From positions 124,001 through 188,000 of the forward strand of contig NZ_PVEO01000007.1 in the NCBI RefSeq assembly GCF_002973595.1: 64,000 bases of DNA, read 5' to 3'. This stretch comes from Jejuia pallidilutea. GTDB lineage: Bacteria > Bacteroidota > Bacteroidia > Flavobacteriales > Flavobacteriaceae. Numbering within the stretch: position 1 is the stretch's first letter; each line of letters opens with the position of its first letter. Positions 10,668 through 41,114 of the stretch are shown here, piece after piece. A model generated the notes under the pieces. That model did not search any database and had not been told where the DNA came from. It saw only the letters and a program-made list of their open reading frames with translations. Made by a program: the position numbers and the translations under genes.

Positions 10668-10686
10668 TACTATTCTTTTTTAAAGG

Positions 10687-10742
10687 TATAAATTAAAATA
10701 TTCCTTAATTAAGGCATAAATTAAAATATTCCTTATTTAGGG
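10687..10742. repeat. Two tandem 28-bp repeats upstream of the SatD-like gene
   Basis: The unit ATAAATTAAAATATTCCTTA recurs with an exact 28-bp period (copies start at 10687 and 10715). Copy 1 ends in the palindrome CCTTAATTAAGG and copy 2 in CCTTATTTAGGG. The position, 20-75 bp upstream of the SatD-like start, fits an operator. Confidence 0.65.
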
Positions 10743-15940: not shown

Positions 15941-17812
15941 ATGAAAAAAACACATGTTTTTGGTGTCCTATATTTAGGATTATCAATGGTTGGTTTTGCA
16001 CAAGAAAAACAAGCAGATTCAACAAAAGTACAGCAACTTGATGAAGTTGTAATTTCAGATTCACGATTCGAATTAAAACGTGAAAATTCTGGTAAAACAG
16101 TGATTAAAATTTCACAACAGGAAATTGAGCGAAACCAAGGTAGAACGCTTACAGATGTAATTAATACCAAAAGTGGTATTGAAGTTAATGGCAGCAGAAG
16201 TGTTGCAGGACAAAACATATCTAGTTTTGTGCGCGGTGGTAACAACAGGCAAGTTTTAGTACTTGTAGATGGTGTACAAATTAACGATCCGTCCCTAGTA
16301 AATAACGAGTTTGACTTACGATTAATGGATTTAAACACTATAGCATCTATAGAAATTGTAAAAGGAGCTGCAAGTACGCTTTATGGAAATGCAGCTGCTA
16401 CGGCTGTTATAAACATTACAACAAAAAAAGCCTCCAGAGATGAAATTTCAGGGAGTTTTTTAACTGTGGTGGGTACAAATCAAACCCAAGACGATTTAAA
16501 CTATAATGGTGCAAGTTTTACTAATAATGTTTCAATAAATGGTACTTTAAACAAGTTTACATATTTAGCTAGTTTTGGGAATAGATTTGTAGATGGTTTA
16601 TCTGCTGCAAAAGCAGAAAATGCCGAAAACGACCCTTTGTCTAGATATAATACCAATTTGAAGTTAGGATATGAGTTTTCAAATAATTTTGAGATCACTG
16701 CCTATGCTAGTTTAGATAAATTTAAAACAGATATTGATGGATTTCCACCACCAACATTCGCTTTTGCTGATACTGATGATGCATACATTTCACAGCAAAA
16801 ACGTGTAGGTATTTCTCCAAAATATATTTATAGGAACGGAAGTTTGCAAGTAAACGCTGCTTATACTAAAATTAATAGGGAAACTATTTCTGCATTTGGT
16901 GCTACAAACGAAGCCGATAGTTATGTGGTTGATGCTTTTAATAAATATAATTTTAATGATGAATTTTATACCATTGTTGGTTTAAATTACGGTGATTATA
17001 ACAGTGTATTTGCCCAGGATGAAAGTTTTACAAATACCGATCCTTACTTGAATGTGGTTTATGTTTCAGATTTTGGTTTAAACCTTAATGCGGGCGGTAG
17101 GTTAAATAACCATAGCGAATACGGGTCTCATTTTGTATACAGTTTAAACCCGTCTTATACTATTTCTGTTGGTGAAGGTTACACCAAAGTTTTTGGCTCT
17201 TACGCCACATCTTTTATTGCACCAAATTTATCTCAATTGTTTGGTTTTTTTGGAGCCAATCCAGATTTAGAGCCAGAGGAAAACGTAACTGTTGAGGGAG
17301 GACTTGAGTATAATACAAAAAACGGATTTAGAATAAATGGCGTGTATTTTAATAGAAATGAGGAAAACACCATTATTTATACTACAGCTTATGAAAACGC
17401 AACAACTGATGCTACTGTGCATGGTTTTGAAATTGAAGCACAAATTGATGTGATAAAAAACCTATCAATAGCTGCTAATTATACATTTACCGAAGTTAAA
17501 GATGGCGAACGCTTAAGAATACCCAAGCACAAGGCCAATGCTAGTTTGGGTTACAATATTTGTAAAAACACTTTTGCATCATTAAATTATCAATTTGTAG
17601 GGAGTAGAACAGATACTAATTTTTCAACATTTACAAATGAAGATTTAAAAGCTTTTTCTTTAGTCGATTTGTATTTTAGCCATAAACTCATTAAAAACAA
17701 ACTGAAGCTTTTTGTTGATGTTACCAATGTGTTTAATGAAGATTATTTTGAAATTTTGGGTTACACTACTAGAGGTAGAAATGTGAGTTTAGGGTTGAAT
17801 TTAAATTTATAA
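15941..17812 (+). CDS. btuB: TonB-dependent vitamin B12 outer-membrane receptor
   Basis: This is a 623-residue outer-membrane receptor. Residues 1-20 are a signal peptide ending in GFAQE. A possible TonB box lies around 30-37 (QLDEVVISD). The plug domain (about 45-150) contains VRGGNNRQVLVLVDGVQIND and GAASTLYGNAAATAVINI. A 22-strand barrel follows to the final SLGLNLNL. The cobalamin riboswitch directly upstream fixes the substrate as B12 or a corrinoid with good confidence. It would hand the ligand to the binding protein, permease and ATPase encoded divergently at 12347-15483. A terminator follows. Confidence 0.92.
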   Translation: MKKTHVFGVLYLGLSMVGFAQEKQADSTKVQQLDEVVISDSRFELKRENSGKTVIKISQQEIERNQGRTLTDVINTKSGIEVNGSRSVAGQNISSFVRGGNNRQVLVLVDGVQINDPSLVNNEFDLRLMDLNTIASIEIVKGAASTLYGNAAATAVINITTKKASRDEISGSFLTVVGTNQTQDDLNYNGASFTNNVSINGTLNKFTYLASFGNRFVDGLSAAKAENAENDPLSRYNTNLKLGYEFSNNFEITAYASLDKFKTDIDGFPPPTFAFADTDDAYISQQKRVGISPKYIYRNGSLQVNAAYTKINRETISAFGATNEADSYVVDAFNKYNFNDEFYTIVGLNYGDYNSVFAQDESFTNTDPYLNVVYVSDFGLNLNAGGRLNNHSEYGSHFVYSLNPSYTISVGEGYTKVFGSYATSFIAPNLSQLFGFFGANPDLEPEENVTVEGGLEYNTKNGFRINGVYFNRNEENTIIYTTAYENATTDATVHGFEIEAQIDVIKNLSIAANYTFTEVKDGERLRIPKHKANASLGYNICKNTFASLNYQFVGSRTDTNFSTFTNEDLKAFSLVDLYFSHKLIKNKLKLFVDVTNVFNEDYFEILGYTTRGRNVSLGLNLNL

Positions 17813-35834: not shown

Positions 35835-35865
35835 ATAAGAAAAGCTCCAGAAGAATCTGAAGCTT
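35835..35865 (-). terminator. Terminator of the gatC-gatA-gatB/aspS operon
   Basis: On the minus strand the stem AAAGCTTCAGA / TCTGGAGCTTT (one mismatch) is followed by TTCTTATT. It starts 22 bp after the fusion gene stop. Confidence 0.7.
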
Positions 35866-35886
35866 TAGCTATGCGTTTATAAGTAA

Positions 35887-38800
35887 TTAGTTTCGTATTA
35901 CCTTCACATTCATTTCCTCAACTTTCTTGTCGGATAGCGGCGAAGGCGAACCAAATAATAAATCTTCACTCGTTCCTGTTTTTGGGAATGCCATAACTTC
36001 GCGAATAGAAGCTTTTTTCTCTAAAATCATCATCAATCTGTCTACACCCCAAGCAATACCGCCATGTGGTGGCGCTCCATAATGAAATGCGTTGTACATG
36101 GTGCCAACGCTCTTCATCATGTCTTCTTTGTTATAACCCATATTCTTGTAGGTAGCTTCTAATATTTCAGGTTTGTGCGCACGCACAGAACCGCCGCCAA
36201 TTTCAAAACCATTCAATATTAAATCGTACTGTTGTGCAATAATGCTACCAATTTCTTCTTCTTTACCATTAATGTGTTTTTCTATATCTTTCACTGCTGG
36301 CATAGAAAAAGGGTTGTGCGTAAAGGTCCAGTTGCCTTCTTCTGTTTTTTCAAACATTGGGAAATCTACAACCCACGCAGGTCTTAATTCTTTAGGGTTA
36401 ATTAGTTTTAACATGCTTCCTAATTCTTGCCTAACAGCGTCTAGGGCCTTATTGGCTGTTTCGTAGTCGGCAGCAGAAAAGAATACAATGTCACCAATCT
36501 GTGCATTAGTTGTTTTAATTATGTTTTTCGCAATGTCTTCTCCTAAGAATTTTATTATTGGCGATTGTAAATCGTTTTCATTTACAATAATGTAGGCTAA
36601 ACCACCTAAACCATGCTCTTGGGCAATACCAGTTAATTTTTCTATTTGTCCTTTAGATAAGCGTTTTTTACCTTGTTCTTCGGCTGAAACACGAATGCAT
36701 TTTACTATTCCGCCTTCATCAATAGGTTTACTAAATACTTGGAAGGTGGTATCTTTTACTATATTGGTAATATCTTGAAGTTTTAGTCCAAAACGTAAAT
36801 CTGGCCTGTCGCAACCATAATAATCCATGGCCTCTTTATAGGTTAACACTTCAAACGGGTGTAAAATCCATTTTTTACCATAAATCCTAGTTACTATTTC
36901 ATTAAACATTTTTGTGTTTAAATCAATAATATCTTGCATGCTAGCATATGCCATTTCAATATCTAGCTGTGTAAATTCGGGCTGTCTGTCGCCTCGAGAA
37001 TCTTCGTCTCTAAAACAACGCGCTATTTGAAAATATTTTTCGTAACCACTTACCATTAATATTTGCTTAAACTGTTGTGGTGCTTGTGGTAGGGTGTAAA
37101 ACGATCCCGCCTTTTTACGTGTTGGCACAATAAACTCGCGTGCACCTTCATCGGTTCCGGCAGTTAAAATAGGCGTTTCTACTTCTAGAAATTCTTGCTC
37201 GTCTAAAAGATCGCGCATTAGTTTAATTACCTTATGGCGATTTATAATGGCACGACGAACATCATCATTTCTGTGGTCTAAATATTTGTATTTAAAACGT
37301 ACTGTTTCGTTTGATTTATGAGCGCGTTTAATTTCAAAAGGAAGTGTTTTAGACAGGTTTAGAATGTCTAATTCCGAAGTTTCTAACTCAATTGTTCCTG
37401 TTCTTAAAGCAGGGTTGTAATCGTCTGCTTTACGCTGAACAATTTCACCTGTAACAGTAATTACCGACTCTGGTTTAAGCTTTACGAGTTCGTCTAAATT
37501 AGGAAACGATTCTCTACTTAATCGCACCTGAAAAATCTCGTGACTAGAATCGCGTAAATCGATGAAGATTAATTCACCGTGATCTCTCACACTCGATACC
37601 CATCCTGCTAAGGTTACTTTTTGTGAAATTGAAGCTTCGCTTAATTCCGAAGCTTTATGGCTGCGGTATTGTTCTTTTATTACAATTGGAATTTGCGGAA
37701 GCGTTTCTTCTTCTGCAGCCTGTTTTTCAGCACTAGATTTTGCACTTTGTTTACTCGCGGTTTCAGCATGTGTTGTAGCTAAACTATCAGCGGCAAGTTG
37801 TGCTAAAATACTTTCTCTAATAACCTTTCCAGGAGCTCCTTTGCCTATAATACCAATTACTTTTCCAACTAGAATACCTGCCTTTCCTTGGTTTCCAGAC
37901 TTAATATCGTTTGCAATAGCCTCGTTTTCTGAAATTACTTTAGCAATAGCTTCATCTATTTGCGATTGCGAAATGGTGTTGTCTTCAAAATACTTGTTGT
38001 AGTCAAAAGTTCTATCCTTCAAATAGGCTGTAATAGCATTTTGTACCAAAACCGAAGTGATTTTTTCGGCTTTAAACATCTGGAAAATTTCAATAAGATG
38101 CTCTATTCTATGAATATTTCCATACTCTTCTGCACCTATATTGTTTACCAAAGTTTTTGCTACAAACGATGGGTCTTTTATAACATCATTTATAGCCACA
38201 AAGGTTTTAGATCGAACGGCATCTGCAGTGAAAAACTTAGCGTCTTGTGGTAACACGCCGCCTTTAATTAAAATAGATTCTACGGCAAACGGAAGGGAGC
38301 TAATATCAACACTAATGTTATCTACAACATCCTTTATATTTACAAAAGGTAAGTCTGGTTCAGAAATAAAACGGTAGTCTGCTTCAAACTCCTTTTTACG
38401 CATTGTTTTTGTTTGCTTTAAATCGGCATCAAACAATACGGTGGTTTGGTCTGGTCTAAATTCTTTATGTTCTAAAAAGTAGTTAAGTTGCTTTTCAACT
38501 TCTTCTTTTAAGGCCTCAACCATAAATTTAAAGGAGTTGAGGTTTTTTATTTCGGTACGCGGATTTAACTTATAACTCCTTCTTTTACGTAGAGACACCG
38601 ATACATCCGATTTAAATTCACCTTTCTCTAAGTTTGCTTCTGAAATACCAAGGTTTTGCACAATACGCTGAATGTATTGTGCATAAATGGAAGCATCTTC
38701 TATATGGCGAATACATGGCTCTGTAACAATTTCGATAAGAGGTACGCCAGCTTTGTTAAAATCTACAAGAGATACTTTTTTCTCGTGCATTAATTTTGCA

Positions 38801-39222
38801 GCGTCTTCTTCTATATGAACCTGTGTTAAATTAACTGTAAACTGAGAGCCGTCATTTCTAAAGCACGATACTTGTCCGTCAGGAATAATAGGGTGATGAA
38901 ACTGCGTAATTTGTATGTTTTTCGGGTTGTCTGGGTATTCGTAATGTTTTCTGTCCCAAGAAATTATTTCGTTTTCAAAGGTAGATTTTACCGCTTTTCC
39001 AAAGTAAATAGCTTTTTTAATGGCTTCTTTATTTATGGCGGGTAAAACACCCATTTGCCCTGTACATACCGAACAAATATTTTGGTTTGGGGTTTCTATT
39101 TCTCGATTTGGGCAAGAACAGAATAATTTTGTTTTGGTATTTAAACGCACGTGGGTTTCTAACCCTATAACCAGTTCTAGTTCGTGCTTTTTAAGTTGCT
39201 CGTTTAATTGCTCCAGTTCCAT
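35887..39222 (-). CDS. GatB-AspS fusion: Asp/Glu-tRNA amidotransferase subunit B joined to aspartyl-tRNA synthetase
   Basis: This is one uninterrupted 1111-residue frame. Residues 1-478 are GatB: the VIGLETHVRL start (Glu22), zinc Cys 35, 37, 50 and 53 (CSC and CSVC), the VPLIEIVTEP block, the EIKNLNSFKF block and the C-terminal tail domain (about 330-478). Residues 479-516 are a Ser/Ala/Glu/Lys-rich linker. Residues 517-1111 are a full bacterial-type AspRS: OB anticodon domain (about 535-622), motif 2 CFRDEDSRGDRQPEF (736-750), GAD insertion (about 818-935) and motif 3 GIAWGVDRLM (1055-1064). The synthetase should make Asp-tRNA and pass it to GatCAB for amidation to Asn-tRNA. His548 sits in RDHGE, where non-discriminating AspRS often have His. 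The ATG overlaps the gatA stop by one base. Confidence 0.95.
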   Translation of the reverse strand: MELEQLNEQLKKHELELVIGLETHVRLNTKTKLFCSCPNREIETPNQNICSVCTGQMGVLPAINKEAIKKAIYFGKAVKSTFENEIISWDRKHYEYPDNPKNIQITQFHHPIIPDGQVSCFRNDGSQFTVNLTQVHIEEDAAKLMHEKKVSLVDFNKAGVPLIEIVTEPCIRHIEDASIYAQYIQRIVQNLGISEANLEKGEFKSDVSVSLRKRRSYKLNPRTEIKNLNSFKFMVEALKEEVEKQLNYFLEHKEFRPDQTTVLFDADLKQTKTMRKKEFEADYRFISEPDLPFVNIKDVVDNISVDISSLPFAVESILIKGGVLPQDAKFFTADAVRSKTFVAINDVIKDPSFVAKTLVNNIGAEEYGNIHRIEHLIEIFQMFKAEKITSVLVQNAITAYLKDRTFDYNKYFEDNTISQSQIDEAIAKVISENEAIANDIKSGNQGKAGILVGKVIGIIGKGAPGKVIRESILAQLAADSLATTHAETASKQSAKSSAEKQAAEEETLPQIPIVIKEQYRSHKASELSEASISQKVTLAGWVSSVRDHGELIFIDLRDSSHEIFQVRLSRESFPNLDELVKLKPESVITVTGEIVQRKADDYNPALRTGTIELETSELDILNLSKTLPFEIKRAHKSNETVRFKYKYLDHRNDDVRRAIINRHKVIKLMRDLLDEQEFLEVETPILTAGTDEGAREFIVPTRKKAGSFYTLPQAPQQFKQILMVSGYEKYFQIARCFRDEDSRGDRQPEFTQLDIEMAYASMQDIIDLNTKMFNEIVTRIYGKKWILHPFEVLTYKEAMDYYGCDRPDLRFGLKLQDITNIVKDTTFQVFSKPIDEGGIVKCIRVSAEEQGKKRLSKGQIEKLTGIAQEHGLGGLAYIIVNENDLQSPIIKFLGEDIAKNIIKTTNAQIGDIVFFSAADYETANKALDAVRQELGSMLKLINPKELRPAWVVDFPMFEKTEEGNWTFTHNPFSMPAVKDIEKHINGKEEEIGSIIAQQYDLILNGFEIGGGSVRAHKPEILEATYKNMGYNKEDMMKSVGTMYNAFHYGAPPHGGIAWGVDRLMMILEKKASIREVMAFPKTGTSEDLLFGSPSPLSDKKVEEMNVKVIRN

Positions 39223-40622
39223 TATATCGTGTCTTTTAAGAAGTTAGCAAACTTCAAAACGAGTTCGTCATTATTTTTTGCAGCTGTAATTTGTAGCCCT
39301 GTAGCTGTACCTTGGGGTATGGTTATGGTTGGTAATTGTCCTAAACTGAAACCAACTGTATATGCATCAGATAAATACATGGCCAAAGGGTCTTTTAAAC
39401 TGTCGCCAATTTTAGGCGGCGTATTTGGAGTTACAGGAGATATTACCACATCAACCTCATTAAAATCGTGCTCGAAATTTGCAGCAATTTCATCTCTAAG
39501 ATTTAAACCTTTTAAGTATATTTCATCTGAAAACCCTTGAGATAATACTTGGTTTCCACCAACAATTCTGCGCTTAGTTTCTTCTGAAAAGTTTTCAGAA
39601 CGTGTTACAGCATAAGTTTCTTTTAAGTTTTCGGCTTCTATACGGTTGCCGTAGTTGGTGCCATCTAAACGAGAAAGGTTTGATGCTGTTTCGGCCATAG
39701 CCAACGTGTAATATGTAGAAACTAAAGTATTCGAATCAAAGAAATCCAACGCTTTAACTTCAATACCTTTCGCTTTTATTTTTTCAATAGTGTTTAAAAA
39801 ATCGGCTTTTATTTCTGCATCAATGGCATCGTTTTCAATAAAATTTTTAAAGTATCCTACGGTTGTTATACCATCAGAATTTAAAATACTATCTTCTGAA
39901 ATAGCTTCTGAAGTATACGTCGTTTGGTCTTTTATGTCTTTACCGCTTATTACGTTTAACACAATGCGAACGTCTTCTATAGATTTTGCTATGGGCCCCA
40001 CACAATCTGTAGAAGATGCGTAAGCCATTAAACCGTAGCGCGAAACACGACCGTAAGTAGGTTTTAAGCCATAAACGCCGTTATATCCTGCTGGTTGACG
40101 AATAGAACCTCCTGTATCGCCACCAATAGAGAAAACCGTGTAATCTTTAGCAACATTTACTGCAGAACCACCACTAGAACCACCACCTACAAGTTCAGGG
40201 TTTTTGGCATTTTTTACAGCACCAAAAATGGTGTTTTCGCTAGATGAGCCATGACCAAAACTATCGCAGTTTTCTTTAACTAAAGGGATAGCGCCAGCAT
40301 CTAATAATTTTTGAATTGCTGTTGCAGTATAAGCAGATTTATAGTGTTTTAACAAGTTAGAACTCGCCGTTGTATACGTGCCTTGTACCATGTACACATC
40401 CTTAATACCAAAAGGAATACCTTCTAGCAAACCAATAGGTTTTCCATTAGCAATTTTAGCATCAACTTTGGCGGCTAAAGCTAAAGCTGTATCGTTTAAT
40501 AACGCGTTAACCGTGTTATGCGTGTTCTGTTTTAAGGCTTCCAGTTTTTCTTGTACCAGTTGTGTACACGTCATATCCTTGTTCATCAATTGCTGGTGAA
40601 TTTTTCGTATTTGAGAATCCAT
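39222..40622 (-). CDS. gatA: Asp/Glu-tRNA amidotransferase subunit A
   Basis: This is a 466-residue amidase-signature enzyme that frees ammonia from glutamine or asparagine and channels it to GatB. The Ser-cisSer-Lys triad is visible: Lys74 (GIPFGIKDV), Ser149 (GGGSSGGSA) and Ser173 (DTGGSIRQPA), with the same spacing as S. aureus GatA (79, 154 and 178). The usual NMDEFAMGSS block is altered to NCDSFGHGSS. The stop codon shares its last base with the gatB-aspS start, and only two bases separate its start from the gatC stop. The three genes therefore form a tight operon. Confidence 0.93.
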   Translation of the reverse strand: MDSQIRKIHQQLMNKDMTCTQLVQEKLEALKQNTHNTVNALLNDTALALAAKVDAKIANGKPIGLLEGIPFGIKDVYMVQGTYTTASSNLLKHYKSAYTATAIQKLLDAGAIPLVKENCDSFGHGSSSENTIFGAVKNAKNPELVGGGSSGGSAVNVAKDYTVFSIGGDTGGSIRQPAGYNGVYGLKPTYGRVSRYGLMAYASSTDCVGPIAKSIEDVRIVLNVISGKDIKDQTTYTSEAISEDSILNSDGITTVGYFKNFIENDAIDAEIKADFLNTIEKIKAKGIEVKALDFFDSNTLVSTYYTLAMAETASNLSRLDGTNYGNRIEAENLKETYAVTRSENFSEETKRRIVGGNQVLSQGFSDEIYLKGLNLRDEIAANFEHDFNEVDVVISPVTPNTPPKIGDSLKDPLAMYLSDAYTVGFSLGQLPTITIPQGTATGLQITAAKNNDELVLKFANFLKDTI

Positions 40623-41079: not shown

Positions 41080-41114
41080 AAAAAGTTACAGAAATGTTGT
41101 TTCTGTAACTTTTT
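41080..41114. terminator. Terminator downstream of the porin gene
   Basis: There is a near-perfect hairpin, AAAAAGTTACAGAAA with TTTCTGTAACTTTT. Read on the minus strand it follows the porin gene and has a T tract; it could also insulate the gatC promoter. Confidence 0.75.

Follow-up and report, generated by a model that had tools for sequence, protein, structure and literature searches.

On the minus strand of the analysed stretch (the window: 64,000 nucleotides of Jejuia pallidilutea, assembly GCF_002973595.1, contig NZ_PVEO01000007.1, positions 124,001 to 188,000), a gatC-gatA-gatB/aspS operon is closed by a gene that encodes GatB, a subunit of the GatCAB amidotransferase, fused to aspartyl-tRNA synthetase (AspRS). 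A first-pass annotation of this DNA, which gave no strand, had described one frame of 1111 residues made up of GatB, a linker and a full AspRS with motifs 2 and 3 intact, and had placed gatA and gatC upstream of it in a tight operon; all of this was borne out. The features are listed below in window coordinates. Named loci are the best 80 of 584 confirmed stretches from a scan of named genomes.

35887..39222, minus strand: gatB/aspS fusion gene, a single open frame of 1111 amino acids plus stop, with domains of both enzymes over cut-off
37789..39222, minus strand: GatB half, residues 1-478, with GatB_N and GatB_Yqey
37675..37788, minus strand: tether, residues 479-516, from low conservation and length variation among fusions
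35890..37674, minus strand: AspRS half, residues 517-1111, from NF001750, with OB fold, GAD and class II core
39222..40622, minus strand: gatA, 466 amino acids, with a one-base overlap with the ATG of the fusion; Amidase PF01425 at 382.9 bits
40625..40894, minus strand: gatC-like gene, 89 amino acids, directly upstream of gatA, with a divergent N-terminal part; in the same place in 77 of the 80 named loci

The fused gene, its distribution and its ancestry

The first half of the protein has the catalytic and tail domains of the GatB subunit of GatCAB, with Pfam GatB_N (PF02934) at residues 17-298 (307.3 bits, cut-off 23.4), GatB_Yqey (PF02637) at residues 370-475 (37.6 bits, cut-off 27) and NCBIfam GatB TIGR00133 at residues 14-456 (346.7 bits, cut-off 314.8). 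It aligns with solved GatB chains over residues 14-470 and keeps their conserved stretches, including the four cysteines of the Aquifex (3h0l) and 3al0 GatB chains. The second half has the class II core, OB fold and GAD insertion of a bacterial-type AspRS (Pfam OB-fold anticodon domain 536-600, tRNA-synt_2 638-1082 and GAD 830-927, all over cut-off) and matches the NCBIfam aspartate--tRNA ligase NF001750 over residues 517-1109 (717.9 bits, cut-off 443). AspRS motif 2 (FRDEDSRGDRQPEFTQLD) does not vary among 24 aligned fusions, and motif 3 (GGIAWGVDRLMMIL) hardly does. The fusion protein does not reach the model for bifunctional AspRS/GatC, NF009460 (475.4 bits, cut-off 1379), and no fusion-specific GatB/AspS model is among its best 25 NCBIfam matches. 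The database name 'bifunctional amidotransferase subunit GatB/aspartate--tRNA ligase AspS', a name only, probably denotes the same protein family.

The two halves are joined by a variable segment. In an alignment of 79 fusions (that of the window and 78 of the 80 named loci), mean column conservation is 0.26 at residues 476-500 and lies between 0.72 and 0.98 in all other blocks of 25 residues. The stretch that corresponds to residues 474-520 ranges from 43 to 58 residues in length, and its end, LPxIPIxIK, is conserved again. Such a pattern is what a flexible tether would be expected to show. Structure prediction of the fusion from a shallow 24-row alignment gave a mean predicted local distance difference test (pLDDT) score of 49.5.

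The plus strand over 35887-39222 contains many stops, and no second GatB match was found elsewhere in the genome (4.11 Mb, listed as 100% complete). An assembly or sequencing error or a hidden stop at the joint, which the first-pass annotation had itself named as one way its claim might fail, was ruled out by the occurrence of 40 full-length frames among 249 genomes from the same family and by the complete operon in 77 of the 80 named loci. The GatB-AspRS fusion is confirmed as real, and chance or assembly error is excluded. Each of these 77 loci has complete gatC, gatA and fusion genes, always with the one-base overlap between gatA and the fusion; in the other three the operon is cut by contig ends. 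The best matches of GatA among solved chains are GatA, and its amidase stretches are kept. Most of the Pfam GatC match of the GatC-like protein lies in the C-terminal part. The N-terminal part is conserved from one fusion locus to the next and does not resemble that of usual GatC. A phmmer search of this protein against solved structures returned no GatC chain in its 12 rows.

Altogether, 41 of the 249 family genomes encode the fusion, 40 at full length without internal stop and one (G170) partially, with residues 1-803 matched and the frame cut at a contig end. The 39 full-length fusions other than our own are 78-91% identical to that of the window. Genome counts were taken from per-genome tables and tallies, and fusions head the score-sorted lists. 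In a survey of 395 genomes of the phylum, 322 of which have some GatB, the three fusion positives all belong to the family of the source organism. Among the matches listed, the fusion occurs in Flaviramulus, Wocania, Tamlana, Gaetbulibacter, Aestuariibaculum, Flavivirga, Seonamhaeicola, Mariniflexile, Algibacter, Polaribacter, Lutibacter, Confluentibacter, Flavobacterium, Flavicella, Wenyingzhuangia and Ochrovirga, and also in Aquimarina agarivorans (72% identity).

Trees of both halves against stand-alone GatB and AspRS, as proposed earlier, were built from 10 fused and 30 stand-alone rows for GatB and from 10 fused and 39 stand-alone rows for AspRS. In each tree the fused rows make up a single clade with full support, an argument for one fusion event. 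That the fused AspRS is a recent copy of the family's own AspRS was ruled out (38-42% identity to 27 stand-alone forms). A further tree of 101 stand-alone AspRS, computed by a quick method, covered 40 fusion genomes and 61 others, the latter taken from the listed part of the family search and not at random. On it the fusion label changes about six times, three of these changes being forced by well-supported branches, so the fusion has been gained or lost several times.

Asparagine synthetases, AsnRS and tRNA-Asn in fusion genomes

Of the 249 family genomes, 15 have AsnA, and none of the 41 fusion genomes is among them. The TIGR01536 cut-off is passed by AsnB-family proteins in 210 of the 249 (194 of the 208 without the fusion); no such protein reaches it in 25 of the 41 fusion genomes, 23 of these having a listed completeness of at least 99%. 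One or the other, AsnA or an AsnB-family protein over cut-off, is present in 197 of the 208 non-fusion genomes, and the association between the fusion and 'AsnA or any AsnB over cut-off' has p = 1.9e-15 (Fisher test, ignoring kinship). The AsnB-family proteins that do occur in fusion genomes are not of the housekeeping type: against NF006949, the asparagine synthase B model (cut-off 499), all 21 reach 230-312 bits, compared with 951-960 bits for five proteins of non-fusion genomes chosen by the look of the match. One accessory AsnB-family protein of a non-fusion genome scores 259 bits, so non-fusion genomes hold accessory types too. Scoring covered up to five candidates per genome in the 249-genome survey and all candidates in the 41 fusion genomes. 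In an AsnB-family tree of 38 rows, a supported clade unites the 11 housekeeping rows and contains none of the 17 fusion-genome proteins included; with the NF006949 scores, this rules out that the AsnB-like proteins of fusion genomes are ordinary AsnB. AsnA or housekeeping-type AsnB was thus found in 0 of the 41 fusion genomes (G051, G140 and G170 being incomplete, at 75-88%), and the fusion therefore looks like the asparagine source.

Exchange of one system for the other is visible between close relatives. Within one genus, G006 has the fusion and G240 has housekeeping AsnB and no fusion; the sisters G134 and G125 form a second such pair, with the fusion in G134 and housekeeping AsnB without it in G125. 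All three strict independent contrasts for housekeeping AsnB run in the expected direction (55 of the 101 tree rows with status). Replacement of asparagine synthetase by the fusion is well supported by the presence/absence pattern.

The two AsnB-family proteins in the J. pallidilutea genome (contig C6, L268:8026-9936 and L268:12134-13972) fail the asparagine synthase B model, and their neighbours are, by eye, glycosyltransferases and other polysaccharide genes. The best model for an AsnB-family protein of genome G246 (L375:674-2572) is a lasso-peptide cyclase, at 409.1 bits and below the cut-off of 525.

A search of the genome for asnS, glnS and a separate aspS, as had been suggested, recovered genes for asparaginyl-tRNA synthetase (AsnRS), glutaminyl-tRNA synthetase (GlnRS; TIGR00440, 719.3 bits, cut-off 425.8) and a separate AspRS, besides lysyl-tRNA synthetase and one bacterial GltX, so that the genome encodes what direct formation of Asn-tRNA and Gln-tRNA needs, as the first-pass annotation had supposed. 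AsnRS is over cut-off in 244 of the 249 family genomes and in 38 of the 41 fusion genomes, where it overlaps with the fusion for tRNA-Asn charging. In the three remaining fusion genomes, G180, G228 and G237 (99% complete in each case), no AsnRS passes the cut-off and the only matches are near 1e-28, which is the level of AspRS cross-hits; on the AspRS tree these absences amount to two changes. Two non-fusion genomes also fall below the cut-off, G037 (E = 2.7e-54, about 320 contigs) and G202 (E = 3.5e-93, 68% complete), and their matches were taken for partial AsnRS genes. Read in this way, AsnRS is absent from 3 of 41 vs 0 of 208 genomes (p = 0.004, ignoring kinship). Judged by gene content, G180, G228 and G237 should form Asn-tRNA(Asn) only via mis-charging and amidation, assembly gaps at asnS being possible, and the fusion looks indispensable there. 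The suggestion of the first-pass annotation that the operon is partly redundant was not upheld, given the three genomes without AsnRS and the lack of AsnA and housekeeping-type AsnB in all 41.

Among 36 tRNA loci of the J. pallidilutea genome, 30 were identified, with one gene each for tRNA-Asn(GTT), tRNA-Asp(GTC) and tRNA-Gln(TTG). In this genome the tRNA-Asn and tRNA-Gln genes have U1-A72 and the tRNA-Asp gene has G1-C72; U1-A72 is required by bacterial GatCAB according to PMC4206432. Both marks of a tRNA-dependent asparagine route were found: GatCAB and AspRS with AsnA and asparagine synthase B missing (3 of the 41 genomes being less than 90% complete), and, in our genome, tRNA-Asn with U1-A72.

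Two residues of Pseudomonas aeruginosa AspRS serve as markers of a non-discriminating enzyme: a histidine at site H31 and a glycine at a second site. The first corresponds to His548 of the fusion.

37579..37581, minus strand: codon of His548, at the P. aeruginosa AspRS His31 site, from alignment to 4wj3 chain M

Histidine occupies the H31 site in 79 of 79 fusions. The family's 101 stand-alone AspRS (L002, L271-L370) have lysine there in 98 cases, leucine in one and arginine in one; the remaining protein, L287, reads RDKRF and was missed by the pattern. The sequence favours, and does not prove, non-discrimination of the fused AspRS. Most stand-alone AspRS examined from other Bacteroidota have leucine or histidine at this site, unlike the lysine of the family.

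Surroundings of the operon

Two terminator-like stems, each a consensus match only, lie on either side of the operon.

35841..35866, minus strand: terminator-like stem after the fusion
41080..41114, minus strand: terminator-like stem of 15 pairs, between the upstream 423-aa gene and gatC

Terminator-like sites in the region are barely above chance (7 vs 5.6, standard deviation 2.4, in shuffles), and promoter-like sites are no more frequent than chance (23 vs 25.9). In the 4-kb flanks of the 80 named loci, the upstream 423-aa gene of the window recurs in 14 and gyrB in 18, and the downstream genes of the window are absent from all 80. This sharing suits an old position with later losses; transfer is also compatible with it.

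None of the Rfam matches in the window is near the operon. They include a Flavo-1 RNA (RF01705; 20243-20321, plus strand, 49.6 bits, gathering score 42), classed by Rfam as an sRNA gene, and a cobalamin riboswitch (RF00174; 15690-15873, plus strand, 112.2 bits) that is closely followed by a TonB-dependent receptor gene (15941-17812). At 10683-10739, a 28-base unit stands in two tandem copies (93% matching).

Probable synthesis of asparagine on tRNA-Asn by a tethered complex

What has been shown directly is the conserved fusion, the operon around it, and which genomes lack AsnA, AsnB and AsnRS; these findings lend support to the earlier idea of a covalent transamidosome. From these sequence comparisons we judge it likely, at a probability of about 0.8, that the operon encodes a covalent asparagine transamidosome, which makes asparagine on tRNA-Asn in place of a housekeeping asparagine synthetase. 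The operon would supply GatCAB with a second, probably non-discriminating AspRS at the C-terminus of GatB. By analogy with the established chemistry of GatCAB and AspRS, the fused AspRS would load aspartate onto tRNA-Asn, GatB would activate the side chain and GatA would supply ammonia from glutamine, with Asn-tRNA(Asn) as the predicted product and tRNA-dependent asparagine biosynthesis as the putative main role. The separate AspRS would serve tRNA-Asp, and AsnRS, where retained, would use asparagine taken up or recycled. Non-discrimination and any benefit of the tether are likewise inferred. More tentatively, and possible rather than probable, the tethered transamidosome may have replaced asparagine synthetase in many flavobacteria and displaced AsnRS in some lineages, all protein asparagine there passing through one complex that does not release Asp-tRNA(Asn).

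Several observations weigh against a transamidosome that replaces asparagine synthetase. Histidine at the H31 site is not a specific marker, being found too in 12 of 27 stand-alone AspRS from other families of Bacteroidota, and the glycine of the second site is replaced in the fusion by Asp600, which is at least 90% conserved in 24 fusions. The gatA product stays below the TIGR00132 gatA cut-off (436.7 vs 481.1 bits). GatC is weakly recognised, with PF02686 at 17.3 bits here and 23.0 in the relative L215 (cut-off 23). AsnB-family proteins over the TIGR01536 cut-off are present in 16 of the 41 fusion genomes, our own included, and could make some asparagine. Conversely, neither AsnA nor AsnB passes the cut-off in 11 of the 208 non-fusion genomes (listed completeness 96% or less), so missing AsnB alone does not imply the fusion. 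Kinship leaves three to six independent contrasts; for 'any AsnB over cut-off' a median of one in three is as expected and none is opposite, and with only three strict contrasts significance is out of reach.

The strongest alternative, though in our view unlikely, is that the fusion is a mere back-up that duplicates AsnRS for tRNA-Asn, with asparagine coming from uptake or from AsnB-like proteins. The retention of AsnRS in 38 of the 41 fusion genomes and the AsnB-family proteins in 16 of them would fit, but all 21 of these proteins fail the asparagine synthase B model, the two in our genome sit among likely polysaccharide-synthesis genes (by eye), and three fusion genomes have no AsnRS over cut-off. 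We consider it quite improbable that the system is decayed or repurposed, with the fused AspRS specific for tRNA-Asp or one half inactive, and that fusion genomes without AsnA and AsnB belong to protein-feeding asparagine auxotrophs: one of the two markers of non-discrimination is indeed absent, but 24 fusions show little or no variation in the catalytic motifs, both halves are 78-91% conserved across the family, and there would be no route to Asn-tRNA in the three genomes where AsnRS does not pass the cut-off. Service in Gln-tRNA(Gln) formation is the least probable role, since the fused synthetase is an AspRS and our genome, the one searched for GlnRS, has GlnRS and one bacterial GltX, even though its tRNA-Gln gene is also U1-A72 and GatCAB can act on Glu-tRNA(Gln) as well (PMC4206432).

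If asparagine is indeed made by the covalent transamidosome, the family offers a natural series on why asparagine is made on tRNA, running from relatives with AsnB and no fusion, through relatives with the fusion and AsnRS, to relatives with the fusion and no AsnRS. The covalent link between AspRS and GatB would fix their stoichiometry, and channelling could be tested by cutting or altering the tether. For annotation, flavobacteria with the fusion should not be called asparagine auxotrophs merely for missing asnA and asnB.

The first-pass annotation knew of no experimental study of such a fusion, and no study of a GatB-AspRS fusion was found in the one open-access library searched; the fusion is not named in the available text of PMC4206432 ('fusion' occurs 0 times and 'fused' once, for an artificial operon) nor mentioned in that of the GapMind paper (PMC7311316). 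According to PMC4206432, which includes a survey of 547 genera, Bacteroidetes are among the clades with AsnRS, GlnRS and GatCAB and no asparagine synthetase, and a non-discriminating AspRS of Bdellovibrio together with GatCAB rescues an Escherichia coli asnA asnB strain. Our best reading, by analogy, is that the system works like the routes of Deinococcus, Thermus and Bdellovibrio in a covalently fused form. As in Deinococcus radiodurans and Thermus thermophilus, AsnRS and GlnRS are kept, and an extra AspRS beside the ordinary one would work with GatCAB to form asparagine on tRNA-Asn, as it does in those two (PMC4206432); their extra AspRS is archaeal-type and separate, whereas the one described here, with its GAD domain, is bacterial-type and joined to GatB. 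Bdellovibrio bacteriovorus likewise combines a bacterial AspRS with GatCAB, AsnRS and GlnRS in the absence of AsnA and AsnB (PMC4206432), but has one unfused AspRS, whereas here a separate AspRS is kept besides the fusion. The NCBIfam family NF009460 also joins AspRS to a GatCAB subunit, the partner there being GatC and here GatB. The asparagine transamidosome of P. aeruginosa (PDB 4wj3) comprises AspRS and GatCAB with homologous AspRS, GatA and GatB chains; its chains M, A and B are distinct molecules, in contrast to the single GatB-AspRS chain described here.

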